Source: Roseimicrobium sp. ORNL1
Lineage (GTDB): Bacteria > Verrucomicrobiota > Verrucomicrobiia > Verrucomicrobiales > Verrucomicrobiaceae
Assembly (NCBI RefSeq): GCF_011044495.1
Contig: NZ_CP049143.1
Coordinates: 7,626,001-7,690,000, forward strand
Reading direction: 5' to 3'
DNA: 64,000 bases
The notes under the pieces were generated by a model. The model was not told the origin of the DNA, ran no database searches, and saw nothing but the letters and a program-made list of their open reading frames with translations. The translations under genes and the position numbers were made by a program. Below, piece by piece: positions 10,635 to 41,537 of the stretch. Every line of letters starts with the position of its first letter. The first letter of the stretch is position 1.

Positions 10635-10741
10635 GACTGAAGTGATCGAGGATGGAAGCTTGGTGAGTGGTGTGTTTCCATAGCCTCGAGCAGGTTCTCC
10701 TTGGCTCAATCGAGAAGTGATTCCTCATGGGATACGCGCCA

Positions 10742-10775
10742 CGCTTCGAGTTTCGGAGAAACTCGGCCACGATCC
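10742..10775 (-). repeat. Family B palindromic unit, right copy
   Basis: The reverse complement of 10601-10634 at 32 of 34 positions, 107 bases away, with core CGAGTTT-CGGAG-AAACTCG. The two units account for most of the 272-base gap between trmL and the next gene. Confidence 0.8.
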
Positions 10776-10850
10776 AGCGATGGGGATGCTCGGAATCACG
10801 CATACCTGTTTCCGCTTCCCACTTGGCAAAAACAGATTACCATCCGCGTC

Positions 10851-11477: not shown

Positions 11478-11503
11478 CGAAACACCGGAGCGACCCCAGC
11501 GTT

Positions 11504-11537
11504 AAAGGCGGCATGGTTCTTCCATCCCGCCTTTTTT
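11504..11537 (+). terminator. Terminator-like hairpin that contains the next start codon
   Basis: AAAGGCGG (11504-11511) pairs with CCGCCTTT (11527-11534), and inside it ATGG (11513-11516) pairs with CCAT (11522-11525). A T-rich run follows. It is placed 27 bases after the PagL-like stop, as a terminator would be, yet the ATG of the esterase gene (11513) is paired inside the stem. Confidence 0.7.
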
Positions 11538-12439
11538 CTTTCTCGCTTCGTACCGCATTCGCGGTGGCGCTTGCCTTGCCGTTGACGGTGTCTGCCCAAG
11601 ACACCGATGCTGCCAAGCCAAAGCCGAAGGCGGATGCCAAGCGCCAGACACCGGCAAAAATTGAAGGACCTGCGCCGACGGAGAAGAAGGTCTACAAGGA
11701 AATCGGCGACACCAAGCTGGAGATCTGGATCTGGAAACCCGAGGGGTGGAAGGCGGATGACAAGCGGAGTGCCATGGTCTTCTACCACGGCGGTGGCTGG
11801 CGCAATGGCAGCCCCAATGCGTTCTCACGGCAAAGCGCCGAGCTGGTGAAGCTGGGCATGGTGGCCATCTCCGTGCAGTACCGCCTCACCTCGCAGGCTG
11901 GCGTGACCATCCCGGACTGTGTGAAAGACGCACGCTCCGCCTTCCGCTGGGTGCGCAGTCATGCGGGTGAACTCGGCATCGATCCCGGGAAGATCGCTGC
12001 TGGTGGTGGCTCGGCCGGTGGACACCTCGCTGCCACGCTGGCGACGCTGGATGACGTGAATGATGCGAAGGATGATCTGAGCGTGAGCGCCAAGCCTGCT
12101 GCCCTGGTGCTTTTCAATCCCGCTACGAAACTCGACTACCGCCGTGCGTCCGAAGTGACCCCTGCACAGCAGGAGGAACTCCTGAAGGTGAGCCCCTATC
12201 ATCACCTGAAAGCTGGACAGCCACCGACGCTCATCTTCCACGGTGATGCGGATAACACGGTGCCCATTGATACCGCGCAGGCCTATGCCGCGAAGGTAAA
12301 GGAACTTGGGGGTTCGTGTGTGGTGGAGGTGTTTTCTGGAGAAGCCCACGGCTTCTTCAATCGCGAGCCGTCGTATTCGAAGACCGTGGAGAAGATGGTC
12401 GCGTTTCTGCGTGAGCAGGGGTTGTTGGGGAAAGAGTGA
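11513..12439 (+). CDS. Secreted alpha/beta-hydrolase, esterase/lipase type
   Basis: A 308-residue protein with a signal peptide (1-29, ending LTVSAQ) and a short Lys/Ala/Pro linker. The catalytic domain has the oxyanion-hole motif HGGGW near residue 92, nucleophile Ser167 in GGGSAGG, Asp245 in HGDADNTVP and His279 in GEAHGFF, a complete triad of the hormone-sensitive-lipase/acetyl-xylan-esterase-like group. It probably removes acyl groups from plant or microbial polymers in the periplasm. The start codon is buried in a terminator-like hairpin, which may limit its translation. No better start exists before the hydrophobic core except a GTG at 11562, which would truncate the signal peptide. Confidence 0.87.
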   Translation: MVLPSRLFSFSLRTAFAVALALPLTVSAQDTDAAKPKPKADAKRQTPAKIEGPAPTEKKVYKEIGDTKLEIWIWKPEGWKADDKRSAMVFYHGGGWRNGSPNAFSRQSAELVKLGMVAISVQYRLTSQAGVTIPDCVKDARSAFRWVRSHAGELGIDPGKIAAGGGSAGGHLAATLATLDDVNDAKDDLSVSAKPAALVLFNPATKLDYRRASEVTPAQQEELLKVSPYHHLKAGQPPTLIFHGDADNTVPIDTAQAYAAKVKELGGSCVVEVFSGEAHGFFNREPSYSKTVEKMVAFLREQGLLGKE

Positions 12440-12467
12440 GGGGGGTGTGGTGCGCGCACCCGACGGA

Positions 12468-12494
12468 GGGGACAAGAGTGTCCCCGATCCTTGG
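12468..12494 (-). repeat. Family A palindromic unit 3
   Basis: Stem GGGGACA (12468-12474), loop AGAG, stem TGTCCCC (12479-12485), then GATCCTTGG, a variant of the constant flank (ACTCCTTG in other copies). It lies 28 bases past the esterase stop. Confidence 0.75.
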
Positions 12495-12555
12495 AAGGCG
12501 CCGATGCTCCTTCGGGGGGAGCATGATGCTCCTCCATAACTAGGCGAGGCTTTGC

Positions 12556-12584
12556 TCAAGGAGTGGGGACATTCTTGTCCCCAT
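12556..12584 (+). repeat. Family A palindromic unit 4
   Basis: Flank TCAAGGAGT followed by stem GGGGACA, loop TTCT and stem TGTCCCC. The two positions that differ from the unit at 4995 (G to A and C to T) lie opposite each other in the stem, so pairing is kept. Confidence 0.85.
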
Positions 12585-12644
12585 TTGTTCAGTGCTACAC
12601 GGTGAAACTCACTAGACGGTTTCATGTGAGCGAAGTGATCATTT

Positions 12645-12672
12645 CGCAGGGAGCGGCACTAGCTTAGTGCCG
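12645..12672 (+). repeat. Family E palindromic unit, left copy
   Basis: Flank CGCAGGGAG followed by the self-complementary core CGGCACTA-GCT-TAGTGCCG. It is repeated inverted at 12768-12796 with a single inserted base. Confidence 0.82.
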
Positions 12673-12767
12673 TCATTGACGTTGCATGTGACGTCGTGAG
12701 CGATGCTCCACAATGTAACCGATGATGAGAGAATACGAAGAGGCTCCGCACCCAGAAGGCTCACCGC

Positions 12768-12796
12768 CGGCACTAAGGCTAGTGCCGCTCCCTGCG
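12768..12796 (-). repeat. Family E palindromic unit, right copy
   Basis: Core CGGCACTA-AGGC-TAGTGCCG followed by CTCCCTGCG, the inverted partner of 12645-12672. The pair sits between family A units 4 and 5. Confidence 0.82.
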
Positions 12797-12849
12797 AGAG
12801 CCTCCCGTATCAAGGACGCGAGACGTCAATCTCTCTGGTCATGCCAAAA

Positions 12850-12878
12850 ATGGGGACAGGAATGCCCCCACTCCTTGA
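12850..12878 (-). repeat. Family A palindromic unit 5
   Basis: Inverted relative to unit 4. Stem GGGGACA faces TGCCCCC, giving one A/C mismatch. The similarity to the 4995 unit continues outward on the flank side (TTGACCAGAGG), so the repeat is longer than the hairpin. Confidence 0.8.
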
Positions 12879-13016
12879 CCAGAGGCTTCGCCACGTGAGG
12901 TGGTTCCCGACTGATGGCACACGGAGTGTGCGGATCATCGCGGGGTTACTTCCACCCCCATTTCTCCCATTTGAAAAAACCCTCACTACAGGCGATGCGT
13001 TCCATGATCTCCCACC

Positions 13017-14246
13017 ATGGACGACCAGCCCAATCACGACCTCACGCACGCTTCCCGAGAAGCGCTGGAGCACTTGCAGCAGCAGGGGCTTCGTCGGTCA
13101 TTGCGTCGGGTGCTCTCCACCAGGGGTGCGGAGATCACGCTGCCGCAGCGTGAGGGGGTCATCAACTTCTCCTCAAACGACTATCTCGGCCTCGCCACCT
13201 GCGATGCGCTCAAAGCCGCCATGCGGGAAGGCGTCGATCGCTTTGGCGTTGGTTCCGGGGCTTCGCGTCTGGTGTGCGGCAACCATGCACCGCATGAGGA
13301 ACTCGAGTCCGCACTCGCATCCTACAAGGGCACTGAGGCCGCGCTCGCCTTCAGTAGTGGATATGCCACGGCTGTCGGTGTCATCCCCGCGCTGGTCGGT
13401 CCGGGCGATGTGGTGATTCTGGATAAACTGAGTCACGCTTCGCTCATTGATGCCGCGAAGCTCAGTGGCGCTACCATTCGCATTTTTCCTCACAATCACC
13501 TCGGCAAGCTGGAGCGCCTGCTTGCAGGAGCACGTGAGAAGGGCGGCGCCTCCACGCGTGTGCTCGTGGTCACCGAGTCCATCTTCAGCATGGATGGTGA
13601 TGCGGCGCCTCTTGCCGAAATCATCGCGCTGAAAGCCAGGCATGATGCGTGGCTGCTGGTGGATGAAGCGCATGCCGTGGGTGTGCTGGGGCCGCAGGGT
13701 CGCGGCCTTGTGGCGTCGCTGGGTCTCGAGAAACAAGTGGAACTGCAAATGGGCACGCTGAGCAAGGCCATCGGTGTGAGCGGTGGTTATGTGGCCACTT
13801 CGAGCGCGGTGCGGGATCTGCTCATCAATCGCGCACGCAGCCTTATCTACTCCACCGCGCCACCACCTGCGGTGGCATGGACCGCGAAACAGGCCATTTC
13901 CCTCCTGCAAAGCAGCGAAGGAGATGCGCGACGCGAAAAACTCTGGAGCAACAAGCGCCTGCTGCTCTCGCTGCTCGGCGAAACGTTCGCCTCGCAAACC
14001 AGCGCTCTGCCCGCTGCCATCCTGCCCATCATCATCGGCGATGAAGAAGCCGCCGTGCAGACCAGTGCGGCGCTGCTGGACGCGGGCTATCTCATCCCCG
14101 CGATTCGTTATCCCACGGTGTCGCGTGGCGCGGCGCGACTGCGGCTCACGCTAAGTGCAGTCCATGAAGCGGCCCAGATCGAAGCTCTTGTCACGTGCCT
14201 TCGCCGCATGGTGCCGCAGTTGGGCATCGCCGCGCATGGTGCGTGA
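13017..14246 (+). CDS. bioF: 8-amino-7-oxononanoate synthase (or close alpha-oxoamine synthase)
   Basis: A 409-residue PLP enzyme of the alpha-oxoamine synthase family, condensing pimeloyl-thioester with alanine in biotin synthesis. Visible marks are NFSSNDYLGLA, GSGASRLVCGNHAPHEELE, the cofactor-stacking region, LVDEAHAVGVLGPQGRG with the PLP-binding Asp, and the Schiff-base Lys250 in MGTLSKAIGVSGGY. Length fits BioF (about 380-400). The related Kbl and serine palmitoyltransferase families are less likely because the N-terminus and length match BioF. No other biotin gene is adjacent. The last 96 bases overlap the convergent glycosyltransferase gene. Confidence 0.88.
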   Translation: MDDQPNHDLTHASREALEHLQQQGLRRSLRRVLSTRGAEITLPQREGVINFSSNDYLGLATCDALKAAMREGVDRFGVGSGASRLVCGNHAPHEELESALASYKGTEAALAFSSGYATAVGVIPALVGPGDVVILDKLSHASLIDAAKLSGATIRIFPHNHLGKLERLLAGAREKGGASTRVLVVTESIFSMDGDAAPLAEIIALKARHDAWLLVDEAHAVGVLGPQGRGLVASLGLEKQVELQMGTLSKAIGVSGGYVATSSAVRDLLINRARSLIYSTAPPPAVAWTAKQAISLLQSSEGDARREKLWSNKRLLLSLLGETFASQTSALPAAILPIIIGDEEAAVQTSAALLDAGYLIPAIRYPTVSRGAARLRLTLSAVHEAAQIEALVTCLRRMVPQLGIAAHGA

Positions 14247-15524
14247 GGCGAAGCTGGTGAGCAGGCCATACTTTTGCGCGAGGCTGAGATCGAAACGCAG
14301 GCTCGCGCGTTCCGCGAAGGCATCCAGCAAATGGAGCGAAGTCTCTTCCTTCGCGAAGTGTTTGCGTGCATGAACCAGACCGGCCGCGCCCATCTGTTCG
14401 CACTTCGCAGGATCCTGCAAAAGTGTGGCCAGATGATCTGCGAAGGCCGCGGGCTGTTTCTCTTCGCAGAGCAGACCGGTCACGCCATCCACCACCATCT
14501 CCGGCACACCGGCGAGGCGCGTCGATACACACGGCAAGCTCGCCGCCATGGCTTCCATGAGCACGGTGGGGAGATTGTCCATGCCACCGTCCTTCTCCGT
14601 CTTGCAGGCGAGCGCGAAGACCTGGGTTTCCTCGGCGAGCAGGCGGATGATTTCCGTCATGCCCAGCGGTCCAGTGAGCGTGACTTGATCTTCCAGTTTG
14701 AGATTTGAGATCTGGGATTTGAGTTCGTCTTCGAGCGGACCTTCGCCGACGATGCGGCACTTGACTGGGATACCGCGATCACGCAGCAGGCCGCAAGCGG
14801 TGATGAGATCATCGTATCCTTTTTTCTCGATGAGACGTCCCACGCTCAGGATCCCGCCCGCTGCCTTGGTGCGGTCTGCTTTCGATCGAGCTTGCATGAA
14901 GGGCTGCAGATCCAGGCCGTTGTACACACGCTGGATGCGCGGGGCTTCATGGGGAAATTCGCTGCGCAGTTTCCTGGCGGTGTAGTCGCTCACCGTTACC
15001 ACGAGGCTGGCTTCCCGGAAGAGAGAAGCCAGTGGTGGAATCTGAGTTTCGCCGCAGCAGAAGATGTCATTCGCATGCGCGGTGAAGCTGAAACTCGTGC
15101 CGTGAAACTTGCGCAGCCACCAGCAGGTGCGCGCGCCCATGCCTGCGAAGTGAGAGTGCGCGTGGCTCGGAGCCGAGCTGCCGAGCTGTGTGAGGACATG
15201 GCTGATATAGGCCGCCTCGTACACGCGATTCTTGTCCGGCCGGTTTCCCCAATGCCGCAGCGTGAGCACCACGCTTTGGGGCAGTTCGTTGGCGTCCTTC
15301 CACTTCAGTACCCGGGCAATCAATTCCTCTTCAGGGGGAAGAAAATGCACACGCTGCAGGAGGTCCTCCGGAAAGTGGCGAACCTTTTCATCCCGCGTGT
15401 CGTGGATGGAGAAGATCAACGGTCGCACGCCCATGCGCTCCAACTCCAGAACTTCCCGCACGCAAAACGTCTGGGTAAACGTGGGGAATCTTTCGAAGAT
15501 GTAAGCGAGGTGGTATCTCGGCAT
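14151..15524 (-). CDS. Glycosyltransferase family 4, WcaL/colanic-acid type
   Basis: A 457-residue GT-B enzyme. The start YIFERFPTFTQTFCVREVLEL is the hallmark of WcaL-like transferases; the donor domain begins at GGILSVGRLIEKKGYDDLI and contains the glutamate motif KDGGMDNLPTVLMEAMAA, in which the EX7E-like site lies. It is cytoplasmic or peripheral at the membrane and likely builds exopolysaccharide. A four-unit 7-base tandem repeat (14697-14724) codes for the SQISNLK segment in a surface loop. The 3' end overlaps bioF by 96 bases, so the last 32 codons are antisense to bioF codons. A 16-base palindrome lies 39 bases upstream of its ATG. Confidence 0.9.
   Translation of the reverse strand: MPRYHLAYIFERFPTFTQTFCVREVLELERMGVRPLIFSIHDTRDEKVRHFPEDLLQRVHFLPPEEELIARVLKWKDANELPQSVVLTLRHWGNRPDKNRVYEAAYISHVLTQLGSSAPSHAHSHFAGMGARTCWWLRKFHGTSFSFTAHANDIFCCGETQIPPLASLFREASLVVTVSDYTARKLRSEFPHEAPRIQRVYNGLDLQPFMQARSKADRTKAAGGILSVGRLIEKKGYDDLITACGLLRDRGIPVKCRIVGEGPLEDELKSQISNLKLEDQVTLTGPLGMTEIIRLLAEETQVFALACKTEKDGGMDNLPTVLMEAMAASLPCVSTRLAGVPEMVVDGVTGLLCEEKQPAAFADHLATLLQDPAKCEQMGAAGLVHARKHFAKEETSLHLLDAFAERASLRFDLSLAQKYGLLTSFASRTMRGDAQLRHHAAKARDKSFDLGRFMDCT
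14697..14724. repeat. Four-unit heptamer tandem repeat inside a coding region
   Basis: On the plus strand the units read TTTGAGA, TTTGAGA, TCTGGGA, TTTGAGT. Read on the minus strand they encode the loop SQISNLK of the GT4 enzyme. The AT content is clearly above the surrounding gene. Confidence 0.75.
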
Positions 15525-28228: not shown

Positions 28229-28280
28229 AAATGCCAAAAGGCTTGGAAAACAGGGCGGATCAGCCACTTACTGTGAGTTG

Positions 28281-29165
28281 ATGACAGGACGAATATCGCA
28301 TTGGCTGTGGGTCACCACCCCTGAATTCTACGCGGGGCCAGATGGCACAGATAGTTTGGACCTGGACCCTGCTTCTGGTGTGGATTCCGATGCATGGTGG
28401 ACTTGCCATCGAGACACTAAACAAGGCGATCTCGCCCTCCTTTGGAGAACATCGCCGCGCCGAGACATCGCGTATCTTATGCAAGCGAAGAGCGATGCCT
28501 ATCCGATTGCTGCCCAACCAGAAGCCCGAAAGCGTGGCTGGTCGTTCGGATGCGAGTACATCATCCGGGCGAAGTTCGAGCGACCGCTGACACTCGCCGA
28601 GTTGAGAGCGGAACCATATCTTGAGGAATGGAGCGCGTTGCGCGGTAACCTCCAGCGCAGCGTTTTCGCCATCCCAGATGCTCACTGGATTCGACTCGTG
28701 CGAATGATCGAAAAGAAGAATCCAGGTGCCGCCAAAAAGTTCGAAACCGCTGAGTCGCGGCGAATGCCCCGGCGAGTTTTGCGGGAAGAGCAAATCGAGA
28801 ATCACCTTGCCGAAGATCTTTCGCCTTTCATTCGGCATGGTCATCACCTGGAGCTTCGTGGTCGACAAACAGTGTGTTCCGGCAACGGAGGCAGAATCGA
28901 TTTGCTCTGCTACGACAAAAGATCTCAGCGCTTCGTCATTGTTGAACTGAAGAATGTTCGTGCGAGCCGCAACACTTTTGGCCAAATTTCATCCTACGTC
29001 GGGTGGGTCGCAAAAAACATGAAAGCACGGAAGAGACCCGTTGGCATCGTCGTGGCCCAGGGCGCTGATCCCGCTTTTCAAGATGCAGAATCGACGACCC
29101 GGGGAATTCAGTTCATTGATCTCAAAGATTTGGGGTTTAAGCAGGGTTCAAGAATGGCACCCTAG
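28281..29165 (+). CDS. EVE domain fused to NucS/DUF91-type PD-(D/E)xK nuclease
   Basis: A 294-residue protein. The N-terminal half (about 1-145) is an EVE domain (SHWLWVTTPEFY, KQGDLALLWRTSPRRDIAYL), a PUA-like module that flips out and reads modified bases. The C-terminal half (about 165-285) is a NucS/DUF91-like nuclease with Asp207 (GGRIDLLCYD), Glu222-Leu-Lys224 (VIVELKN) and the QxxxY element from Gln235 (GQISSYVGWV), a complete PD-(D/E)xK site. Such EVE-nuclease fusions are candidate modification-dependent (type IV-like) restriction enzymes. The ATG at 28281 is preferred to a TTG one codon earlier. Base composition is visibly more AT-rich than neighbouring genes, and it sits right behind tRNA-Cys, consistent with acquisition. 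Confidence 0.82.
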   Translation: MTGRISHWLWVTTPEFYAGPDGTDSLDLDPASGVDSDAWWTCHRDTKQGDLALLWRTSPRRDIAYLMQAKSDAYPIAAQPEARKRGWSFGCEYIIRAKFERPLTLAELRAEPYLEEWSALRGNLQRSVFAIPDAHWIRLVRMIEKKNPGAAKKFETAESRRMPRRVLREEQIENHLAEDLSPFIRHGHHLELRGRQTVCSGNGGRIDLLCYDKRSQRFVIVELKNVRASRNTFGQISSYVGWVAKNMKARKRPVGIVVAQGADPAFQDAESTTRGIQFIDLKDLGFKQGSRMAP

Positions 29166-29213: not shown

Positions 29214-32063
29214 GTGCACATTGCATTTGGTCGAGGTGGTGTGTTGAAGGCACTTCTCTTTGACAAACTTGGAGGCCAGTGGGTGTTGTGGCGCTCAACC
29301 TTCCCACGCAATCCATTGTTCCTGGCATCCATCTCCTCCAAACTCAGATCCCTCGCGACGCCCATCCTCCTGGGCCTGGTTTGTTTCGTCGTGTACAACG
29401 CGAATCTCCGACAGATTGGCGCTGGAGACACGCTGTCTGCGCGCTACCTGCCGCTGATTCTCTGGCGCCATGGCACGCTTGAGATCAGCAGCACGAATGC
29501 GCGTTTGGTGGCGCATGGTCATTCCCAGACCGTCGGGTGGAACCGGCCAATAGATGGGGAAGCCAAGGTCGCGTACTTTGAGCCGTGGGCGTATTGGATT
29601 GCCCGCACTCTCGAGCACGAGCGAGCGTCGTTGTATCCCGTGGTCGCGCCTGTGCTCGTGGCACCGCTGTATGCGCCGGCCGTTCTCTGGCTGAATGAGC
29701 ACGGTTGGGGACAGCCCCAGGTCGGTTGGGTGGCGGAATGGATGGAGAAGATCTCGGCATCGATCATAGCCTCGATCGCCTCTGTCCTGATGTATCTGGT
29801 GCTGCGCCGGGACTGCGGCAGGTGGAGCATCCCGCTGACATTGGCGTTCGCGTTTGGGACCAATACGTGGATGATCTCCAGTCAGGCGCTCTGGCAGCAC
29901 GGGACGGCTGAGTTGCTGATCGCTCTCGCCCTGCTGCTGGCTGTCGGCAAGGTGTCGCCATGGCGCACGGCGTTGCTGGGTGCTGCTTGTGTTTTGATGA
30001 CGGCGAATCGTCCGCCCGACGGTGTGATTGCCGTCGCATTCGGGATCTTCACGCTTTGGAATCAGCGGCGGGGTGCTTTGTGGCTAGTCGTCGGGGGCAT
30101 TGTTCCGCTGGCCGCACACCTGTATTACAATATTCACTTCATCGGCAACTTGAACGGGGCGTATGGCCTCGAGAGTGGCAGGGGCTTCTACCAACCGGGA
30201 CTTGCGGGAGTGGCCGGGCTGCTTGTCAGCCCCAGTCGTGGGCTGCTCATCTTTTCACCGTTCCTGGTGTTTCTCCCGCTGGGATTGATGCAGCGGTTGA
30301 GAACCCCCCATACAAAGGTGCTCGCCATCGCGCTCAGCCTTGCGGCCCTCACCCAGTTCGCGTTTTATTCGCAGTTCGACTGGCGTGCCGGGGCGTGCTG
30401 GGGGCCCCGCTGGCTGACGGACATGCTGCCCATTCTCGTCTGGCTGCTCGCTCCGGCTCCGCTCGTGCTTCGACCATTCGCGCGCGGGGTACTCGTCACC
30501 ACCATGGCGGTGTCGATTGCGGTGCAGGCCATTGGTGCCTTCTGGTACACCGGATTGAGCGAGGAACGCATCTGGGCCGAGGGGCACCAGTCGATGAAGG
30601 GAGCGTGGGATTACAAAAACATTCCGTTTATCAAGGAATTGCGTCAGCCACCGGCATGCGGTGAGCTGCTGGACAACGCGCTCGGCTCCCTCGATCGCGT
30701 GGGGCCGACGCTGATGGTGGCTGGCACGAGAGAGATTCCGGAGCTCGGGCCAAACACGGTGCTGGAAGGTTGGGCGCTCGCCGGGGGCCGTACGCCGGCC
30801 CAACTTCTGGTATTGATCGACGGGATTGCGGTTGGCACGACCATGGAGTTCCTGCCGCGAGCAGATGTCAACGCAGCCATGCACACCGATGCGCTCTCGG
30901 GATGGCGCGTGTATGCCAATACACGAGGCGTGCGACCGGGGAAGCGCGTGCTTCAGCTCGCCCTCCGCATCCAGCCGCGAAGTGATGTCCGGATCCTGGG
31001 TGAATGGCGCGTTTTCGTGGTCGCTCCAGATCCCGCCACGGAAATCGCCGCGACGCCGCAAAAGCCGGCGACGCTGGCAGATCTCGGTGCCATGGCGGAG
31101 CGTGCGTCGTCGTTGCTGCGCTCACGGCAGAACGAGCAGGGCTACTGGCTCACCACTTACACGAAGCGCCTTCGTTACGAGGATCCGCAGCCGGAGATGA
31201 ATACCTACCTGACCTCCATGCTGGTGGACTTGCTTTCACCCATCGCAAGCCAGCGAGGTCTCAGCGAAGCGATGGATCGCGCAAAACGGCACCTCGCGGC
31301 GCAGATCGAGAGCAACGGATTGGTCCGTTACCACGGACTGCCGGATGGTCCCATCATAGGCCACCTGGGACATGCCATCACCCCGGACTCGGACGACACG
31401 GCGCTGGCCTGGAGGATCGCCGGGCCGGGCAAGAATGATCCGAGACTGGAACCCATGCTCAAGGAACTGGCTCGATATCGCGACAAGAGAGGTCTGTACC
31501 GCACCTGGCTCGCTCCGCGAGACAAGTACCAGGGACTGGATCCCGGTCGCGACCCCAATCCGACCGACCTCACCATCCAGATGCACATCTATCTGATGCT
31601 TCGCCAACTGGATCCCCCTGCCGCAGAGAAACTCGCTCGCGCGATGCAGCGCTCGTTCGTGGAGGAGGACGTTTGGGTCTACTACGCCAAAGCCCCACTC
31701 GTGCCCTACCTCCGCTGTGCCGAGCTGCGACAACTTGGTTGCGATATTCCCCTGCCCATCGAGCGGCTGGCGCTCACGCCTGAGGGCCAGGAGGTCTGGA
31801 GCGAAGCGGTACGTCTTTTTGTTGCGATCCTTGAATCTCCCCAAGACGCGAACCTCCGGCAGGCGATTCGTCAGTTGCTGGTGCGCATCGGCGACGGCGA
31901 CTTCGCCCAGCTTCGCCAGTCGCCGCCGATGCTCTACCACAATGATATGAGTGCGACCGTGAAACGCTTCTATTGGTCCGAGGATTCTGGATACGCCCTG
32001 TGGCTCCGGCTCTACGAAGCTACCGTTGAGAACCCCACCTCGCCGCGCCCCTCACCGCCATGA
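29214..32063 (+). CDS. Polytopic PMT-like membrane glycosyltransferase fused to a terpene-cyclase-like toroid
   Basis: A 949-residue protein. Residues about 50-480 hold many membrane helices interrupted by loops, with early acidic residues (QIGAGDTLSARYLPL) like those of dolichyl/polyprenyl-phosphate-dependent GT-C mannosyltransferases. A beta-rich soluble linker (about 490-620) follows. From about 625 to the end it is all-alpha and soluble: QNEQGYW (Gln639-Trp645) fits the QxxxGxW repeat of squalene/hopene cyclases and DSDDTA (Asp725-Ala730) fits the DxDDTA motif of class II terpene cyclases. Whether it cyclises a prenyl chain is inference. The start is uncertain: GTG at 29214 is the longest choice, and the first membrane helix begins near residue 48. 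It overlaps the UbiA gene (ATGA). Confidence 0.7.
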   Translation: MHIAFGRGGVLKALLFDKLGGQWVLWRSTFPRNPLFLASISSKLRSLATPILLGLVCFVVYNANLRQIGAGDTLSARYLPLILWRHGTLEISSTNARLVAHGHSQTVGWNRPIDGEAKVAYFEPWAYWIARTLEHERASLYPVVAPVLVAPLYAPAVLWLNEHGWGQPQVGWVAEWMEKISASIIASIASVLMYLVLRRDCGRWSIPLTLAFAFGTNTWMISSQALWQHGTAELLIALALLLAVGKVSPWRTALLGAACVLMTANRPPDGVIAVAFGIFTLWNQRRGALWLVVGGIVPLAAHLYYNIHFIGNLNGAYGLESGRGFYQPGLAGVAGLLVSPSRGLLIFSPFLVFLPLGLMQRLRTPHTKVLAIALSLAALTQFAFYSQFDWRAGACWGPRWLTDMLPILVWLLAPAPLVLRPFARGVLVTTMAVSIAVQAIGAFWYTGLSEERIWAEGHQSMKGAWDYKNIPFIKELRQPPACGELLDNALGSLDRVGPTLMVAGTREIPELGPNTVLEGWALAGGRTPAQLLVLIDGIAVGTTMEFLPRADVNAAMHTDALSGWRVYANTRGVRPGKRVLQLALRIQPRSDVRILGEWRVFVVAPDPATEIAATPQKPATLADLGAMAERASSLLRSRQNEQGYWLTTYTKRLRYEDPQPEMNTYLTSMLVDLLSPIASQRGLSEAMDRAKRHLAAQIESNGLVRYHGLPDGPIIGHLGHAITPDSDDTALAWRIAGPGKNDPRLEPMLKELARYRDKRGLYRTWLAPRDKYQGLDPGRDPNPTDLTIQMHIYLMLRQLDPPAAEKLARAMQRSFVEEDVWVYYAKAPLVPYLRCAELRQLGCDIPLPIERLALTPEGQEVWSEAVRLFVAILESPQDANLRQAIRQLLVRIGDGDFAQLRQSPPMLYHNDMSATVKRFYWSEDSGYALWLRLYEATVENPTSPRPSPP

Positions 32064-32941
32064 CCATTCGAGGCGTGTTGCGGCACTATGCACGAGTGGT
32101 GCGGTTTTTTGTCTCCACCCGGGCGCTTGAGGTGGGTGCGCTCCAGGCCTCTCCGATCATTGGCGGCTTCCTCGGCGGTTTCAGCCTGGAGCAGGGCGCC
32201 GTGCTCCGGATGGTGCTGCTGGTCCTCGGCAGCCTGGCGCTCACCGCTCATGTTTTTGTCCTGAACGATTGGGCCGGTCATCGCAGCGACCTTCGTGATC
32301 CCCGGCGCGCGAGGCTTGTTTTTACCCGGCAGGGTATTTCCCGGGGGGATGTCGCGCGCATTGCCATGGCGCTGCTGATCTTCTCGAACATGGCCCTCGC
32401 CATCGTGGGAGGACCAGCCGTGCTGCTGGGCACTGCGATTGCAGTCCTCGGCCTCCTTTATTCATGCTCGCCGGTTGGGAAGAGCACACCTGTGGCGGCG
32501 TCGATCAATCACCTGGTTGGAGGCTCGCTGCACTTCCTGCTAGGGTATACCCTCTTCCATCCGCTGGATGGCAGAGGACTCGCCATCAGCATTTTCTTTG
32601 GCCTGGTGTTTGCCGCCGGCCATCTCAATCAGGAGGTGCGTGACCATGAGGGAGACGCCCTCAATGGCATCCGTACGAGCGCAGTGGTGTTTGGGTGCCA
32701 GCGCACGTTTCTCGCGAGCCTGGGGATCTTCACCCTTGCTTATGCGCTCATCGTCGTCCTGGCCATGCTTGACCTCCTGCCCCGGCTGCTGATCTGGAGT
32801 TCTGCGATTCTGTGGTCCCTGCAGGTGGCCCTGTCCGCGCAGGCGCTTCGGCGCGGATTGAGTTCAGAGACAGCGCTATGGATGCAACGGCGCTACCGGT
32901 TGCTGTTCGCAGTCACAGGGCTTGCCATGCTCATCCGATGA
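32060..32941 (+). CDS. UbiA-family prenyltransferase
   Basis: A 293-residue integral membrane protein with about eight or nine helices. UbiA enzymes attach polyprenyl chains to aromatic or sugar-phosphate acceptors using two Asp-rich motifs that bind the diphosphate through magnesium. Here the first is NDWAGHRSDLRD (Asn69, Asp70, Asp77, Asp80), in which the usual second Asp is replaced by Gly73. The second is RDHEGDALNGIRT (Asp195, Asp199). The DPRR-type link resembles decaprenyl-phosphate phosphoribose synthases and related UbiA members in lipid-linked sugar pathways. It starts inside the stop of the membrane GT gene and ends 187 bases before the two-domain glycosyltransferase ATG, so the three genes form one operon. 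Confidence 0.83.
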   Translation: MTIRGVLRHYARVVRFFVSTRALEVGALQASPIIGGFLGGFSLEQGAVLRMVLLVLGSLALTAHVFVLNDWAGHRSDLRDPRRARLVFTRQGISRGDVARIAMALLIFSNMALAIVGGPAVLLGTAIAVLGLLYSCSPVGKSTPVAASINHLVGGSLHFLLGYTLFHPLDGRGLAISIFFGLVFAAGHLNQEVRDHEGDALNGIRTSAVVFGCQRTFLASLGIFTLAYALIVVLAMLDLLPRLLIWSSAILWSLQVALSAQALRRGLSSETALWMQRRYRLLFAVTGLAMLIR

Positions 32942-33128
32942 CGGCTGAGTGCCGAATCTGGCAGGGCACGACCTTGGGCCGGATGGGGTGACCTCACGCC
33001 CAAGGAAAACTTTAAACCCATCCGGAGCGGATCGCTTGATGATCGGGGATTTCGTGGTACGACGGATGGCCCAGAGTGGGGGGATCCGGCCTGCGCTGCC
33101 TCGCCCCGTCCTGGTTGTAGTTCCCCCC

Positions 33129-35912
33129 ATGGAAAAAGCCGCTTCATCCACCCCATTTTCCGTCTGCACGATTGTTTCTACGAACTATCTGGCGCGGGCG
33201 CTGGTGCTGCATGACTCCCTGAAGGCACATCACCCTGAGGTGGATTTCTGGTTGCTTCTGATTGATGACGCCGCGCTTGGGCCGCTGGCGCAGCAGGCGG
33301 TGGATCGCCGGGGCATCCATCTGCTTCGGGTCCATGAGATCGAGCTTGCTGCGGAGGAGGTGGCAAACTTCCGCTTTGCCTACGACCTGACGGAAGTCGC
33401 GACCGCCTACAAGCCGTGGACCATGGAGACGGTGGCCCGGCTTTCGGGGCACCATGTCTTCTACATCGATCCGGACATTGAATTCTTCCGGCCCATGACG
33501 AGCCTGGTGGAGGCCGTGCAGACTCATGAGCTAGTGCTCACTCCGCATGTGCTGCACCCCATGCAGAGAGATGGCTGCCAGCCCTCCGAGTCTGACATCA
33601 TGGGGAGCGGCATCTACAACCTGGGCTTCCTGGGGATGAATCGCGCAGCGGCGCAGCGGGTGACCGCATGGTGGACGGAGAGGCTGTTGCGGGAATGTTA
33701 CAGCGCTCCTGAGCAGCAGAGATTCACCGACCAGCGGTGGATCGATTTCACGCCCTGCTTCTTTGATTGCTTCATCTCCAAAGATGAAACCTACAACGTC
33801 GCGTACTGGAATGCGGATCAGCGTCGCGTTGCCCTGAAAGACGGTCGCTATTTCGTGAATGGCAAGCCGCTGTCATTCTTCCACTACAGCGGGTTGGATG
33901 AAAGGAAGCCCCATCTTCTGACACGGCATCACCAGGGGCATCCCCGTGTGTTGCTCAGTGAGCATGCAGATCTGATCGGGCTGACCCAGTCCTACATCAA
34001 GGCGGTCGATCTGGCGCATCAGGAGTGTGTCGATACGGTGGCTGAGTATCCCTACCTCCGCTTCTCCAGTGGGGAAGCCATCTCCCGCACCTTGCGCCGG
34101 CTGTTTCTCAAGGAGCTTGTCAAGGCAGAGAAGGAGAACCGCGCCGTGCCGCCCTCTCCCTTTGGGCCACTGGGAGAGGAGCCGTTCTTCGCCTGGCTGA
34201 GTGCGTCGGAAGACTCGAATGAAACCGCCCAGTCGGTTCCTCGTCTGGCTCTCCTGTTGCGCGAATCCCGGCCTGATCTCATGGCCGCATTTCCGGAGCC
34301 TCAGGGCCGCGATGCCTCGCGGTTGATCGAATGGATCCGATCTGACGGAGCCAAGCAGTTCGCGCTGCCGCGCCGCCTGATACCAGCCCCAGTCGCGGTG
34401 GCGGTGAAACAGGCGCCCAGCACTCTGGTGCCGGGATTGGAAATCATCGGTTATCTGCGCACCGAATCCGGGGTGGGTCAGGCCGCGCGTCTGCTCGCCC
34501 AGGGGTTGAGTGTGTCCTCCGTGCCCTTTGAGACGTTGGTGGACTCTTCTCCCCCCGCTCGTCAAAACGCGGCGCACGAGTATCGCAGAAAGGGATTGCT
34601 GGGTGAAGGGGAGGCTTTTGATTGCGCTGTCCTTTGCGTGAATGCCGACAGCGTGGCCTCTTTGCGCCGCCGACTTGGGCCCGCCCATTTTCACAAGCGC
34701 CGCGTGGCAGGCCTGTGGTTCTGGGAGGTGGAGGCCTTCCCGGAGAGCATGCACTCCGCTTTTGAAAAGGTGGATGAGGTCTGGGTGGCTACGGAGTTCA
34801 TCCGCAAGATCCTGGCCCCGATTTCCCCGGTGCCGGTCCACTGCATTCCCCTGCCGTTCGGCGTCGCTGAGGCGACTGCAGGCGAATTGGACCGCAAGAG
34901 CCTGGGCATCCCGGAGGGGTTCTTCTTCTTGTTCAGCTTCGATTTCCACAGTGTCTTCCGGCGGAAAAATCCATTGGGCGTTATTGAGGCTTTCAAGCGC
35001 GCCTTCCGCGAAGGTGAAGGCCCCTCGCTGGTGATCAAATGCATCAACGGTGACGCGCACCTCGCCGATCTGGAGGAGCTGCGCTACGCCGCGCTCGCTC
35101 GCTCCGACATCATCATCATGTCCGGTTACATGGACGCAGCCGTCAATCAGGCTCTGACCGCGGCGTGCGGTTGTTATGTCTCCCTCCATCGGAGCGAAGG
35201 CCTGGGACTGACGATGGCGGAGGCCATGCGGCAGAAGAGGCCGGTCATCGCCACGGGCTACTCCGGGAACATGGAATTCATGCACGAGAGGAACAGCTAC
35301 CTCTGCCGCTTTGACATGGTTCCCGTCGGTCCGGGTTCTCCGCCCTACTCTCCCAAAGCGCTCTGGGCAGAGCCCGATGTCGCGCATGCAGCGGAGCTGA
35401 TGAGGCATGTCTATGCGCATCCTGAAGAGGCCTCGGAAAGAGGACGCGTCGCTGCTGAGGATCTTGCGGAACGATTCAGCCCGCAGCGCTGTGCTGCCGC
35501 AGTGGAGACCCGCTGGCGGGAACTTCGCTCCACCGCCATTCCATCAGGAAATGGATTGGGATTGGTCTCGTCGAATGGGCATTTGACGGGTTCCTCAGCG
35601 CCACTGAAAACGCTGCACAAGCAGTGGAAACGTGCCCTCGGGGGCAAGGACACCGTGCCCTCGCTCGGCACCATCCTTTTCCAGGGGCCTCAAAAGATTC
35701 TGAAGAAGCTGCTTCTCCGCCGCGAGAAACAACGGAAGCCCTTTGATGAAGCCCTCGTGCTCGTCACCAGCAGTCATGACCGGCGGCTCACGAACATGGA
35801 GAATGCCGTGCGTGAACTTCGCGAACAGAACGCGATGCTCCTGGATGCTCTCAGCGCCGCTCGTAAGGACACTTCCCGGATGAACGGGAATGGAAACGGG
35901 CGTTTGCACTGA
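33129..35912 (+). CDS. Two-domain glycosyltransferase (GT-A plus GT-B) with C-terminal coiled coil
   Basis: A 927-residue cytoplasmic protein. The N-terminal part (about 1-300) is a GT-A-type nucleotide-sugar transferase: STNYLARALVLHDSLKAHHP at the start and a DxD-type metal motif in FYIDPDIEFFRPM (near residues 112-114). The C-terminal part (about 437-800) is a GT4-like GT-B enzyme, beginning EIIGYLRTESGVGQAARLLA and holding SLHRSEGLGLTMAEAMRQK. Residues about 870-915 form a short coiled coil. Two active sites suggest two consecutive sugars added to a surface glycan. The ATG at 33129 is chosen because strand 1 of the GT-A domain starts 10 residues later; the upstream open frame is not protein-like. 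Strong convergent hairpin follows. Confidence 0.87.
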   Translation: MEKAASSTPFSVCTIVSTNYLARALVLHDSLKAHHPEVDFWLLLIDDAALGPLAQQAVDRRGIHLLRVHEIELAAEEVANFRFAYDLTEVATAYKPWTMETVARLSGHHVFYIDPDIEFFRPMTSLVEAVQTHELVLTPHVLHPMQRDGCQPSESDIMGSGIYNLGFLGMNRAAAQRVTAWWTERLLRECYSAPEQQRFTDQRWIDFTPCFFDCFISKDETYNVAYWNADQRRVALKDGRYFVNGKPLSFFHYSGLDERKPHLLTRHHQGHPRVLLSEHADLIGLTQSYIKAVDLAHQECVDTVAEYPYLRFSSGEAISRTLRRLFLKELVKAEKENRAVPPSPFGPLGEEPFFAWLSASEDSNETAQSVPRLALLLRESRPDLMAAFPEPQGRDASRLIEWIRSDGAKQFALPRRLIPAPVAVAVKQAPSTLVPGLEIIGYLRTESGVGQAARLLAQGLSVSSVPFETLVDSSPPARQNAAHEYRRKGLLGEGEAFDCAVLCVNADSVASLRRRLGPAHFHKRRVAGLWFWEVEAFPESMHSAFEKVDEVWVATEFIRKILAPISPVPVHCIPLPFGVAEATAGELDRKSLGIPEGFFFLFSFDFHSVFRRKNPLGVIEAFKRAFREGEGPSLVIKCINGDAHLADLEELRYAALARSDIIIMSGYMDAAVNQALTAACGCYVSLHRSEGLGLTMAEAMRQKRPVIATGYSGNMEFMHERNSYLCRFDMVPVGPGSPPYSPKALWAEPDVAHAAELMRHVYAHPEEASERGRVAAEDLAERFSPQRCAAAVETRWRELRSTAIPSGNGLGLVSSNGHLTGSSAPLKTLHKQWKRALGGKDTVPSLGTILFQGPQKILKKLLLRREKQRKPFDEALVLVTSSHDRRLTNMENAVRELREQNAMLLDALSAARKDTSRMNGNGNGRLH

Positions 35913-37007: not shown

Positions 37008-40000
37008 ATGCGACGTATTGTCCGTCCTGCCATGCTCTCCCTCTCTCGCTTCGCCGGTTTCTTAACGTGCACGTTCCTTGTTTTAGCTGTTTCCGCCGGT
37101 TTGGCCGGAGCGGCGCCGCTGGTCTTTGAAGGCAAGGAGGGACCGGGCAAAGGCAAGCACATTGTCTTCCTCGCGGGGGATCATGAGTACCGCTCGGAGG
37201 AGTCGCTGCCGGCACTAGCGCGCATCCTGGCAAAGCATCTGGGCTTCAAGTGCACCGTGCTTTTCGACATCGATGGCCAGGGCGATATCGTGGCGGGTGA
37301 GGTTTCGAACATGCCGGGCATCGAGGCACTGGATACCGCGGATCTCGCTGTGGTGTTCTTGCGCTTCCAGAACTTCCCAGCGGAGCAGATGAAGCACCTC
37401 GATGCCTATCTCAATCGCGGTGGCCCCGTGGTGGGACTGCGCACGGCGACGCATGGCTTCAAAATTCCGAAGGACGGTCCCTACGCGAAGTACTCCTACG
37501 ACTACAAGGGCACCGATTATGAATTGGGCTTCGGTCATCAGGTGCTGGGCCAGACCTGGGTGGGCCACTACGGTACAAATCACAAGCAGAGCACGCGCAT
37601 TGCCATCGCGCCCGACAAGGCCTCGCATCCCATCCTGCGCGGCGTGAAGGACGTGTGGGTGCAGGTGGGTGGCTATGTTGGCAAGCCCACGAGTGGCGAA
37701 GTGCTCACCATGGCGCAACCGCTCAATGGCATGACCCCCGACTCACCCGCGGATGAGACAAAGCCCCCCATGCCGAGCGAGTGGACGCGCACCTACAAGT
37801 CCGCCTCTGGCAAAGAAGGCCGCGTTTTCACCACGCTCTACGGGACCTCGGAAGACATCACGAATGACGGCTACCGTCGTCTCGTCTTGAACGGCATCCT
37901 CTGGGCCGCTGGATTGGAAGACAAGATCAAGCCGGATCTCAACATCGACTTCGTGGGTACCTTCGAGCCGAATACCTTTGGCGGTGGCGCTTATGCCCGC
38001 GGGATCAGGCCGGAGATGTATGCGAGCTACGACAGCCAGATTCCCGCAAACCACAACACGACTGCGCCCGAGAAGACGAAGCAGGATACGAAGTCCGAAC
38101 CCGCAAAGCCAGCACCGGTTGCTGCAGCTCCTGCTCCGCTCGTGACCGGCAAGCCCGCCCGCTTCGTGCGCATTGAAGTTCCCGGTGAGCGCCAGACGCT
38201 CACGCTGGCGGAAGTGGAAGTCATCGTTGGCGGCAAGAACATCGCGCCCACTGGCAAAGCGACGCAATCCACTACGGCCAATGGCGGCGTGCCCCAGCGT
38301 GCGATCGACGGCAACAAGAATCCTGACTGGGGCAAGGGAGGCCAGACACACTCCCAGGAAAACAAGCCCAACCCCTGGTGGGAACTGGACCTCGGCACAG
38401 CGGTGGACATCGAGAAGGTCGGTGTCTGGAACCGGGCCGGTTTCACGGGACGCCTGGAAGGCTTCACCCTGCGGCTGCTCGATGCGGATCGGAAGGATGT
38501 TTTCGTGGCGACCAAGATTGAGGCGCCTGAGTCAATGACCATCGACATCAAGGACAAGGGCAAGCTTACGTACCTCACCTTTGATGGGAAGCCTGGCAAA
38601 CCTGCACCCAAGTCGGGCAGCTCTGGTGGGCAGCCATCCGGCCCGCCGGAGCCGCCGCTCGCAGACGTGCCGGCGGCTTACAGGGACACGCTTCCATTCG
38701 CGTTTCAGAAGGGCGATGTCGTCGCCATTCTCGGCAACGGCCTGCCGGAGCGCATGCAGCATGACGGTTGGATGGAGACCGTGCTCCAGAGCCAGCTCTC
38801 GGATCAGCAGGTGCGCTTCCGCAACATGACCACCAGCGGGGATCGCCCGAACTCGTATCCCCGCAGCCCCGGCCAGATTTCCATGGCCACCTATTTGCAG
38901 CACGTGAAGGCGGATGTGGTCTTCGGTTTCTTTGGGTACAACGAATCGTACGAGAACAAGCCAGAGGAGTACAAGGCGCAGCTTCTTGAGTTCGTGAAGA
39001 AGACGCGTGGCACCAGGCCGAATGGCAAGAACTTCCCGCGTATCGTGCTCTTCAGTCCCATCGCGCATGAGGACACGCGCAATCCCAATGTGCCCGATGG
39101 CAAGGCGCACAACGTGCAGCTCGAGGCGTACACGAAAGCCACGAAAGAAGCGGCGGAAGAAGCAGGTGTGGGCTTCGTGGACCTGTACCGTCCTTCGCTG
39201 GAACTCTTCAAGGCTTCCAAGGAGCCGCTGACCATCAATGGCGTGCACCTCACCGATGAAGGCAACCGCCAGCTCGCGGAAGTGATTGGCACCGCGCTGC
39301 TGGGCAAGCCGGTGAGCGCATCGGCGTCTCTGGACCAACTGCGTGAGGCGGTACTCGACAAGAGCTATCACTGGTACCAGCGCTACCACGCCTCCGATGG
39401 CAATGACGTCTGGGGCAGCCGCTCGACGCTGGCTTTCGTCGATGGCCAGACCAACGGCGTGGTGCTGCAACACGAGCTCTCCATGCTGGATGTCATGACC
39501 GCGAATCGCGATGAGCGCGTGTGGGCGCGCATCAAGGGTGGTGACAAGAAGATTGACGACAGCAATGTGCCCAAGCCGGTGCCCGTGAAGTCGAACGTGG
39601 GTGGTGGCAGCAAGAGCAGCAGCGCGCAGAAGGAAGGCCTGCTCAAGTACGTCAGCGGCGAGGAAGGCATCAAGCACCTGGCCGTGAGAAAGGGTTTTGA
39701 AGTGAGCCTGTTTGCGGACGAGAAGCAGTTCCCTGAACTGGCGAATCCGGTGCAGATGCAGTTCGATACGAAGGGCCGTCTCTGGGTCGCGACCTGGCCC
39801 GACTATCCGAAGTGGGAGCCGCTCAAGGAATCCCGCGATGCGTTGATCATCTTCCACGATGATAACAATGACGGCAAAGCCGACCGCACCACGGAGTTCG
39901 CCAAGGTCAATAACCCACTGGGCTTCGAGTTCTGGAATGGCGGTGTGCTCGTCACGCGCCAGAGTGAGCTTCTGTTCCTGAAGGACACGGATGGTGATGA

Positions 40001-41537
40001 CAAGGCGGATGTGCGCATCATCATGCTGCAGGGTCTCGACAGCAGCGACACGCACCATGGCGCGAACAACCTCGTCTATGGGCCCGACGGCGGCATCTAC
40101 TGGCAGAGCGGTGTCTTCATGCAGCACAACCATGAGCATCCGTGGGGACCTTCCCTGCAGGCCAATGCGAGTGCGATGTACCGCTTTGATCCGCGCCGCT
40201 TCACCATTGCGAAGCATGCGGACAATTCACCGAACCCCCACGGCATCTCGTTTGACTCCTGGGGCTATCAATATGCCACCGATGGTACGGGCGGTCGCGC
40301 GTATCAGGTGAGACCCGAAGGCAACAGCTTCAAGATGTATGAGCTCTTGAAGAAGGAAGTGCGCCCCGTCACGGCAAGTGAAGTGGTGAGCAGCCAGCAC
40401 TTCCCCGCAGAGATGCAGGGCGATTTCTTGATCTGCAATGTGATCGGCTTCCTTGGTGTGAAGCAGTATCACCTGGAACGCGATGCGGATAAGGCCACCG
40501 TGTGGGGTGAGCCTTCCGGTGAGGAACTCACCGTCAAGGTCACGCAGGCAGACGGCACGGTCGGCGAAGAGAAGTCCCGCGGCTTCCTCATGAGCGGTGA
40601 CAAGAACTTCCGTCCCTCCGATGTGGTCTTCGCGCCGGATGGTTCGCTCTACATGGCGGATTGGCACAATGTCATCATCGGCCACATGCAGCACAACGTC
40701 CGCGATCCCAATCGCGACCACGCCCACGGTCGAATCTACCGCATCACCGCCACAGGGCGTCCGTTGCAGAAGCAGGTGGCTATCGCCGGTCAGCCCATCC
40801 CTGCGCTGCTGGAGAATCTCAAGCACCCCACGGACAGCATTCGTCATCGCACGCGTATCGAGCTGAGCGCTCGTGATTCGAAGGAAGTGATTGCTGCCAC
40901 GAAGGAGTGGATCAAGCAGTTCGACCCGAACAAGAAGGAAGACGCTCACCACCTGCTGGAGGCGCTCTGGCTCTTCCAGCAGCACAATGTGCGCAATGTG
41001 GAACTGCTTGGCCAGCTCCTGAAGTCGCCCGAACCGCATGCCCGCAACGCCGCGCACGTGGTGCAGCACTTCTGGTACAATGTGGAGTCCACCATCCATG
41101 GCGGCGTCATCGCTGGTGAGGAAGAGGCGAAGGCCCAGAAGTCCGGCATCCTCAGCGACACACCGGAACTCACCACGATCCGCATCGCCACCGTTCCTGA
41201 GCGCATGATGTACGACGTGAAGGAGATCAGCGTGAAGCCGGGCAAGAAGGTGAAGCTCACTTTCGCCAATCCGGACTTCATGCCGCACAACATCCTTCTG
41301 GTGAACCCCGGCAAGATCGATGAGATCGCCAACAAGGCGATGGTCATGGGCGCGCAGGGCTTTGAGACCGGATTCATCCCCGAGAGCAAGGACATCCTCT
41401 GGCACAGCAAGCTCCTCGATCATGGCAAGGAACAGGTCATCGAATTCACCACGCCTGAGAAGCCCGGCGACTATCCCTATGTGTGCTCCTTCCCCGGGCA
41501 CTCGATCATCATGCGAGGGGTGCTGAAGGTGAAGTAA
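37008..41537 (+). CDS. Giant secreted modular protein: ThuA, discoidin, SGNH-like, dehydrogenase propeller, cupredoxin
   Basis: A 1509-residue exported protein (signal peptide about 1-35; start at 37008 or at an internal ATG, 37032). Domains in order: ThuA-like (about 50-300, [15 protein letters not shown]); F5/8C-type sugar-binding (about 381-520); SGNH-like (about 570-765) in which the nucleophile motif reads [10 protein letters not shown] without Ser, though GVHLTDEG is kept; PVC membrane-bound-dehydrogenase propeller (about 895-1260); helical repeats (about 1270-1370); and a cupredoxin (about 1389-1509) with MPHN and [12 protein letters not shown] supplying His, Cys, His and Met copper ligands. 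No CxxCH haem motif is present. Role is probably periplasmic oxidation of a carbohydrate, with copper replacing the usual haem; this is inference. Confidence 0.85.

Follow-up and report, generated by a model that had tools for sequence, protein, structure and literature searches.

Genes at the Locus

The window analyzed here, a stretch of 64,000 nucleotides (NZ_CP049143.1, positions 7,626,001 to 7,690,000) from the single-contig, 7.96 Mb genome of Roseimicrobium sp. ORNL1, encodes three consecutive genes on the same strand (Table 1), of which the first two form the gene pair that is the subject of this analysis. Gene 1 encodes a protein (P0001, hereafter protein 1) that joins a GT-C-like membrane domain and an Ig-like domain to a C-terminal domain resembling class II terpene cyclases, gene 2 encodes a membrane protein of the UbiA superfamily (P0002), and gene 3 encodes a glycosyltransferase with two domains. 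This layout, including the overlap of genes 1 and 2 as ATGA, agrees with an initial annotation made from the sequence alone, as does the presence of a GT-A and a GT-B domain in protein 3, given that its N-terminal part was GT8-like by profile comparison and that a GT4 domain was identified by Pfam. By-eye comparison with homologs indicates that the true start of gene 1 is probably downstream of 29214, perhaps at the TTG at 29316, and that gene 3 probably starts at the ATG at 33129, about 190 nt past the end of gene 2.

Table 1. Features of the three-gene locus (positions are those of the window).
Feature	Position	Strand	Description
Gene 1	29214..32063	+	949 aa as annotated; GT-C / Ig-like / class II terpene-cyclase-like fusion
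GT-C membrane domain	29352..30542	+	P0001 about 47-443; 11 helices by reading
Asp72 codon (GAGDT)	29427..29429	+	First extracytoplasmic loop; candidate GT-C catalytic Asp
Ig/FnIII-like domain	30678..31019	+	P0001 about 489-602; VIA Z about 8-9, near the level where middling matches are common
C-terminal class II terpene-cyclase-like domain	31062..32060	+	P0001 617-949; ~330 aa
DSDDT motif	31386..31400	+	P0001 725-729; in register with the DxDD of squalene-hopene cyclase
His791 codon	31584..31586	+	Domain position 175; aligned on His451 of squalene-hopene cyclase
Gene 2 (P0002)	32060..32941	+	293 aa; UbiA-superfamily membrane protein
UbiA motif 1, NDWAGHRSD	32264..32290	+	P0002 69-77; Gly at +4
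UbiA motif 2, DHEGD	32642..32656	+	P0002 195-199 (D195, D199)
Gene 3	32949..35912	+	987 aa; two-domain glycosyltransferase
Gene 3, GT8-like part	about 33156-33923	+	LgtC E 0.0016 by profile
Gene 3, GT4-like part	about 34893-35501	+	Pfam GT4

Conservation and Distribution of the Gene Pair

A total of 16 other loci share the architecture of protein 1 (42-69% identity; one is cut by a contig end), a recurrence indicating that the architecture is not due to chance, and a UbiA gene directly follows gene 1 in all 17 loci, window included. It should be noted that the UbiA frame is split in L025 and that contig ends cut L027, in which just the final part of gene 1 is present, and L028, where the UbiA gene runs off the contig. 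Pairwise identities of protein 1 and of protein 2 are strongly correlated (r 0.975 over 15 loci, L025 and L027 omitted; none of 5000 permutations gave a value as high), and the correlation is 0.894 within the 10-member main group. The initial annotation treated all three genes as a unit. Domain pairing and gene order across genomes uphold the pair (17/17) as the conserved unit but not the trio, since gene 3 is variably placed or was not found.

Full-length homologs of gene 1 were detected in 3 of 141 other relatives searched, the fifth match being a partial one in genome G100, and a search of the phylum recovered full-length homologs in 2 of 386 other genomes, which were again G002 and G006. 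A contig scan added nine further genomes through 11 loci, two of which are contigs of G002 and G004. Four diverged homologs (42-46% identity) were found in a search that matched 7 of 347 genomes, a number that counts G497 itself, a protein with a different membrane part (L055), and a weak match in G842. No relative was found in viral contigs, and both genes are absent from the same-genus genome G001. Additionally, a profile of gene 2 (E 1e-3) had no match in G001, G008, G010, G012, or G100; these absences concern only the gene 2 type, since G100 does carry, beside its cyclase domain, a UbiA too diverged for this profile to detect.

Several of the loci are contigs of 3-18 kb from metagenome-assembled genomes, for which the assigned phylum could be erroneous (L024, Chloroflexi; L025, Geobacteraceae; L027; L028, actinobacterium). 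Presence in Verrucomicrobiota and Acidobacteriota is based on longer contigs (L022, 124 kb; L023, 985 kb; L026, 106 kb), and the pair spans at least two phyla. The window protein is 65-69% identical to four acidobacterial copies of the main group and 66-67% identical to three copies from its own family. This similarity of cross-phylum to within-family identity suggests horizontal transfer, as judged from protein identities.

Domains and Predicted Sidedness of Protein 1

A Pfam scan of protein 1 returned no match, and the NCBIfam model for the LA_3751/LA_3752 putative glycosyltransferase family matched it weakly (29.7 bits, below the cut-off of 200); this weak match recurs in 11 of 11 members of the fusion family. 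An AlphaFold model of the full protein had a mean pLDDT of 51.8, with better values across most helices, and its membrane part and Ig-like domain were usable while its C-terminal domain was poor. The model was aligned by VIA-align with oligosaccharyltransferase (OST; Z 20.8, rmsd 4.6, 339 aligned), ALG12 (Z 19.4), and ArnT (Z 17.0, rmsd 4.3, 316 aligned), with PglB also among the GT-C matches (overall Z range 17.0-20.8). In Foldseek, ArnT, AftA, and oligosaccharyltransferase ranked near the top, with a receptor/nanobody chain (TM-score 0.12) ahead of them. The membrane part is thus almost certainly a GT-C domain, in line with the initial suggestion of an ArnT/PMT-type fold. Asp72, which is unchanged across 11 of 11 aligned members, is a candidate for the catalytic acidic residue of this domain. 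The Ig-like domain had been overlooked in the initial annotation; its VIA matches were accessory domains of mannanase and chitinase A, and sulfite dehydrogenase.

A hydropathy script listed ten membrane segments in protein 1 and an eleventh within the Ig-like part. Read by eye together with its diverged homolog L056, the protein has 11 helices with Lys/Arg-rich loops inside, so that the Ig-like and C-terminal domains are predicted from hydropathy and charge to lie outside the cytoplasm, a manual reading rather than a dedicated topology prediction. For L055, with 13 listed segments, the C-terminus would likewise fall outside.

Probable Assignment of the C-Terminal Domain to Class II Terpene Cyclases

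The initial annotation described the part following the GT-C-like domain as a soluble all-alpha domain, a description that the sequence supports but structure prediction does not. Its assignment to the class II terpene cyclases was reached through intermediates. The weak match in G100 noted above is a 1465-aa protein (L014) in which a DLDDT-bearing domain lies between a GT4 domain and a cytochrome P450; the profile of the fusion family matched it with 96% probability (E 3.4e-9) in a profile comparison. The middle domain of L014 in turn matched TIGR01787, which comprises squalene/oxidosqualene cyclases (E 0.0017), SQHop_cyclase_C (E 0.016, below cut-off), and drimenol synthase (E 0.026). A profile of 11 rows (nine from the fusion family plus L014 and L057) matched squalene-hopene cyclase at 6.7e-7 and led to five stand-alone homologs (L117-L121) in a search of the phylum to which the Blastocatellia genome G497 belongs, where 12 of 396 genomes had any match. 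Only one of the five, L118, passes the SQHop_cyclase_C cut-off (26.5 vs 26.1). When the five were combined with L014 and four fusion-family rows in a mixed profile of 10 rows, all 14 solved sequences matched at E <1e-3 bore names of terpene cyclases or of their HAD fusions. These included the drimenol synthase AsDMS (5.6e-11, positions 47-313), squalene-hopene cyclase (7.9e-11), 8paj (5.2e-9), AstC (5.8e-8), 8pak (1.8e-6), the prenylcyclase 6ij1 (1.4e-5), and MstE (1.8e-4). A HAD-like N-terminal domain is not present in protein 1, where this position is taken by the GT-C domain.

Further, adding L014 and L057 to the fusion family gave a score of 53.1 in the direct profile comparison with squalene-hopene cyclases, vs at most 22.9 in 20 shuffles; DxDD was not aligned on DxDD in this comparison because the repeats slip. 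A hidden Markov model of verrucomicrobial squalene-hopene cyclases scored L014 at 20.0 bits, L057 at 7.1, and the fusion family at 2.8 or less. Taken through these intermediates, the domain is very probably class II cyclase-like. A GH88-like reading based on a single weak match (E 0.084, one of 11 members) was dropped given the cyclase matches.

In the 11-row profile, the PDxDDT of the family aligns on the PDVDDT of squalene-hopene cyclase (D374, D376, D377; residue numbers counted off the printed alignment), and in the mixed profile the motif of the fusion family aligns on the DxDTT of drimenol synthase. The D-x-D is present in 25 of 25 domains and the next Asp in 23 (exceptions, L057 and L117), and domain position 175 is His or Asn in all 24 aligned domains. 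The roles of His451 and Asp376 in squalene-hopene cyclase are taken here as background, no paper on them having been found in the literature searched. An Arg and a Tyr are also invariant in the fusion family. The middle Asp of the motif is essential in AsDMS (PMC9128629) and AstC (PMC13244436), and in AstC an Asn and a Tyr reportedly activate the catalytic Asp (PMC13244436). The His/Asn at domain position 175 may correspond in position to this activating Asn.

The UbiA-Like Protein

P0002 matches PF01040 (UbiA) with 77.4 bits, vs a cut-off of 34.2. Of the two Asp motifs that had been ascribed to it, motif 2 is present and its DxxxD is kept in all 18 aligned UbiAs that are linked to the cyclase domain, whereas motif 1 departs from expectation as NDxxGxxxD, the form found in 15 of these 18. 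The form NDxxDxxxD occurs in the remaining three (L028, L055, L014) and, by inspection, in the UbiAs of L119, L120, and L057. Residues matching Arg22, Asn68, Tyr139, and Lys146 of AfUbiA could be identified by eye in P0002. For four partner UbiAs (L055, L014, L056, L028), the best NCBIfam model was PRK12875 'prenyltransferase', far under its cut-off. N68A and D72A are among the changes that abolish binding of geranyl diphosphate (GPP) by AfUbiA, and equivalent changes in Escherichia coli MenA abolished function (PMC4106721). Given these mutants and the loss of the +4 Asp, P0002 is placed in the UbiA superfamily, with prenyl-diphosphate chemistry as a putative activity.

Other Arrangements of the Cyclase-Like Domain with UbiA

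UbiA genes were found nearby in 22 of 25 loci with the cyclase domain, all 25 having been found via the cyclase domain and not via UbiA; the window genome contains five UbiA matches in 7.96 Mb, or about 0.01 per 20 kb. The N-terminal partner of the domain varies among these loci. In L055, the domain (48.6% identity) is located behind a DUF6077 membrane domain, with a UbiA gene just upstream and overlapping, and in L014 the GT4-cyclase-P450 protein (a single open reading frame, 1535-5932) is followed by an overlapping UbiA gene. A stand-alone domain, a GT4 gene, and a UbiA gene occur inside 3.4 kb in L119, and in L120 a stand-alone domain is 1.3 kb from a convergent UbiA gene. L057 encodes what by eye is a lipoprotein-like version of the domain (a hydrophobic stretch followed by LLAC) with the motif DADTT, flanked on one side by a divergently oriented PMT_2 GT-C gene (7761-9338) and on the other by a UbiA gene (about 14.1-15.0 kb) whose motif 1 is canonical. 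L118 abuts a GT9 gene. That UbiA is retained while the N-terminal domain changes is the strongest indication of a common pathway for UbiA and the cyclase domain.

Several other features of these loci were recorded. The UbiA of L014 has an extra C-terminal stretch of >100 aa; in a search of 240 genomes with a stretch of L014, the listed matches other than itself were only in or adjoining the P450 part. In the region of L057 that runs from the PMT_2 gene to the UbiA gene (7761-14962), two more long open frames with no Pfam match are located between the domain and UbiA. At L117 2693-3787 and L121 2599-3687, stand-alone cyclase-like genes are each preceded by an open reading frame of ~360 aa; these two frames are somewhat alike at their N-termini by eye, and that of L121 has no Pfam match.

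Gene 3 and Neighboring Genes

The window, L011, L012, and L022 each have a gene 3 homolog with >60% identity close to the pair, and the G004 contig ends before this point. Only in the window and L011 does gene 3 follow the pair on the same strand, while in L012 and L022 it is nearby on the opposite strand. Elsewhere, it is represented by diverged homologs (two in L054, one in L025), by its N-terminal part only (L018, L023), or by a GT-B match only (L020, L026), and in others no homolog was found. Gene 3 is therefore linked to the pair but is not part of the invariant unit.

Among ten chosen neighboring open reading frames in five loci, seven encode glycosyltransferases or fusions thereof (recognized from Pfam matches or from resemblance to gene 3); a sulfotransferase domain is present in two of these seven. 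The other three encode two methyltransferases and an APS kinase. A further ten frames were chosen from eight other loci; two of them (L023, L054) encode glycosyltransferases and eight do not. These scans covered the chosen frames, a minority of the flanking ones. The APS kinase and sulfotransferase-GT2 fusions flank the pair in L012 (12691-13302 and 6620-8854), L018 (10721-12595), and L054 (3712-8136), hinting at sulfation of the product. Upstream of the pair in two relatives (L011, scanned; L012, by eye) is a GT2 gene resembling a polyprenyl-phosphate-sugar synthase, and a GT2 64% identical is encoded elsewhere in the window genome. Within the window, a 295-aa protein encoded at 28278-29165 contains an EVE domain followed by a region resembling PDDEXK nucleases, with matches to YhcG_C and NucS_C, and is perhaps a modified-DNA-specific nuclease, and a 1509-aa protein encoded at 37008-41537 combines ThuA, F5/8-type, GDSL lipase, DUF7133, and plastocyanin-like domains.

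Proposed Function and Alternative Explanations

Taking together the domain identities (that of the cyclase via intermediates), the conservation of residues, and gene linkage, a set of reactions can be proposed in which substrates, order, and sidedness are all conditional. Genes 1 and 2 would form a cassette that makes a membrane lipid, namely a cyclic terpenoid or meroterpenoid bearing sugar, a reading with a probability of roughly 0.55 for the combined mechanism. The UbiA protein would join a prenyl chain to an acceptor inside the membrane. The C-terminal domain of protein 1, a single beta domain of class II type, would then cyclize the prenyl part, with the distal double bond protonated by Asp727 (the middle Asp of DSDDT) and His791 assisting. 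Finally, the GT-C domain would glycosylate the product using a polyprenyl-phosphate sugar, and the glycan may be extended or decorated by the product of gene 3. The predicted topology of the cyclase domain places the cyclization and GT-C steps outside the cytoplasm, where the domain would lie beside the GT-C active site and both would act on a membrane-held substrate. The exported-looking lipoprotein of L057 is taken as support for this sidedness. The initial annotation proposed a prenyl-linked glycan or surface glycolipid, perhaps cyclized: the combination of GT-C, cyclase-like, and UbiA components supports a glycosylated, possibly cyclized prenyl lipid. Rather than a glycan linked to prenyl phosphate, the nearest known logic is that of class II cyclases of a single domain whose substrate is a prenylated compound, here extended by a glycosyltransferase.

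A broader and more tentative version of this proposal, which we hold to be somewhat less probable than not, is that the cyclase acts at the outer side of the cytoplasmic membrane and that the GT-C enzyme to which it is fused glycosylates its product, such that a prenylated lipid made by UbiA is cyclized and sugar-capped outside. This would represent a pathway for surface glycoterpenoids that Verrucomicrobiota and Acidobacteriota have exchanged by horizontal transfer, and it would be one example of wider, undescribed modules of UbiA, monodomain cyclase, and glycosyltransferase, of which L057 would be an unfused form.

Several observations weigh against the cassette proposal. To our knowledge, a class II cyclase outside the cytoplasm would be unusual. 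Profiles of the fusion family alone (A3, A7, A8) match no cyclase in the PDB set, and the window domain matches no Pfam family, including SQHop_cyclase_C (PF13243); it scores 2.1 bits with the hidden Markov model of verrucomicrobial squalene-hopene cyclases. In the direct profile comparison, the fusion family scores 31.1 against 15 verrucomicrobial squalene-hopene cyclases (controls: reversed alignment 20.2, five shuffles at most 21.3), which is level with the 29.4 obtained for four helical-repeat proteins without DxDD. An AlphaFold run on the C-terminal domain alone, with 12 sequences, had a pLDDT of 41.5, worse than in the full-protein run, and the model was unusable. No UbiA was detected in the 12-20 kb retrieved around L117, L118, and L121 with a profile that recovers the UbiAs of L014, L055, L057, L119, and L120, and no glycosyltransferase was found among the scanned neighbors in six loci (L024, L052, L053, L055, L056, L120). 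Moreover, the +4 Asp of motif 1, whose equivalent in AfUbiA is D72, is absent in 15 of 18 UbiAs, and the active sites of UbiA proteins face the cytoplasm (PMC4106721).

Three alternative explanations can be considered. In an arabinan-like scheme, the product of gene 2 would resemble decaprenyl-phosphate phosphoribosyltransferase in making a sugar donor linked to polyprenyl phosphate, which the GT-C domain would use, with the C-terminal domain as a non-cyclizing accessory. The UbiA gene does adjoin the GT-C gene, the fold matches include the arabinosyltransferases AftA and Emb (alongside other GT-C enzymes), and the altered motif 1 could mean altered donor chemistry. This scheme is nevertheless rather unlikely: P0002 has no match to decaprenyl-phosphate phosphoribosyltransferase models (PRK12324) at E 0.1, the UbiA of L055 scores 16.7 bits vs a cut-off of 207, and neither the invariant DxD nor the presence of UbiA beside domains without a fused GT-C (L014, L119, L120) would be explained. 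Another explanation is that the C-terminal domain no longer takes part in terpene chemistry and serves the GT-C enzyme as a carbohydrate-binding or -active helical barrel, the linkage to UbiA then reflecting lipid-carrier metabolism. Its predicted extracytoplasmic position, the lipoprotein-like version beside a PMT_2 gene in L057, the weak GH88 match mentioned above (E 0.084, 1/11 members), and the fact that the fusion family alone is no nearer to cyclases than to other helical repeats would all fit. The conservation of DxD (25/25) and of His/Asn (24/24), the exclusive matching of cyclases by the mixed profile (14/14 at <1e-3), and the fusion to a P450 in L014 argue otherwise and make this explanation unlikely.

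A different possibility retains cyclization but has the cyclase domain use a free prenyl diphosphate, with gene 2 as an intramembrane UbiA-type terpene synthase or transferase using the cyclized diphosphate and the GT-C domain glycosylating the terpene. Related TC-beta domains act on farnesyl diphosphate (FPP) (PMC9128629, PMC13244436), and the invariant Arg and Tyr of the fusion family could hold a diphosphate. Set against this are the hydropathy and charge reading, which places the domain outside and away from cytosolic prenyl diphosphates, and the exported appearance of L057, such that we regard this possibility as quite improbable.

Relation to Known Systems and Implications

The cassette proposal can be compared with several known enzymes and families. 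The substrate of MstE (merosterolic acid synthase) is made by a UbiA-type enzyme. MstE is a monodomain class II cyclase and it is among the mixed-profile matches (1.8e-4); its single cyclase domain protonates and cyclizes the prenyl chain of a prenylated aromatic compound, and MstE differs in consisting of one domain with no fused glycosyltransferase (PMC9401909). The HAD-TC-beta drimenol synthases AsDMS and AstC, which include the best profile match, likewise carry a C-terminal TC-beta domain on an unrelated N-terminal domain, but the partner is HAD-like and the substrate FPP, whereas the partner in the window is a GT-C membrane enzyme. The GT-C fold is shared with enzymes such as ArnT and with the LA_3751/LA_3752 family, for which the score is under the cut-off (29.7 vs 200) and for whose name no paper was found in the literature search. 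With UbiA-superfamily prenyltransferases, P0002 shares PF01040 and motif 2 but has Gly in place of Asp at +4. No paper on the fusion was found among open-licence PubMed Central (PMC) texts, and the initial statement that no pathway with this fusion has been described is uncontradicted within that scope.

Fusions indicate which enzymes carry out successive steps. The occurrence, in more than one phylum, of a cyclase-like domain that is fused to a membrane glycosyltransferase and fixed beside UbiA suggests the existence of cyclic, glycosylated lipids undescribed in open-licence PMC texts, and the domain in this fusion is invisible to the family libraries used. The finding suggests that terpene cyclization may take place outside the cytoplasm, with Asp727 and the gene pair as testable handles on this possibility.

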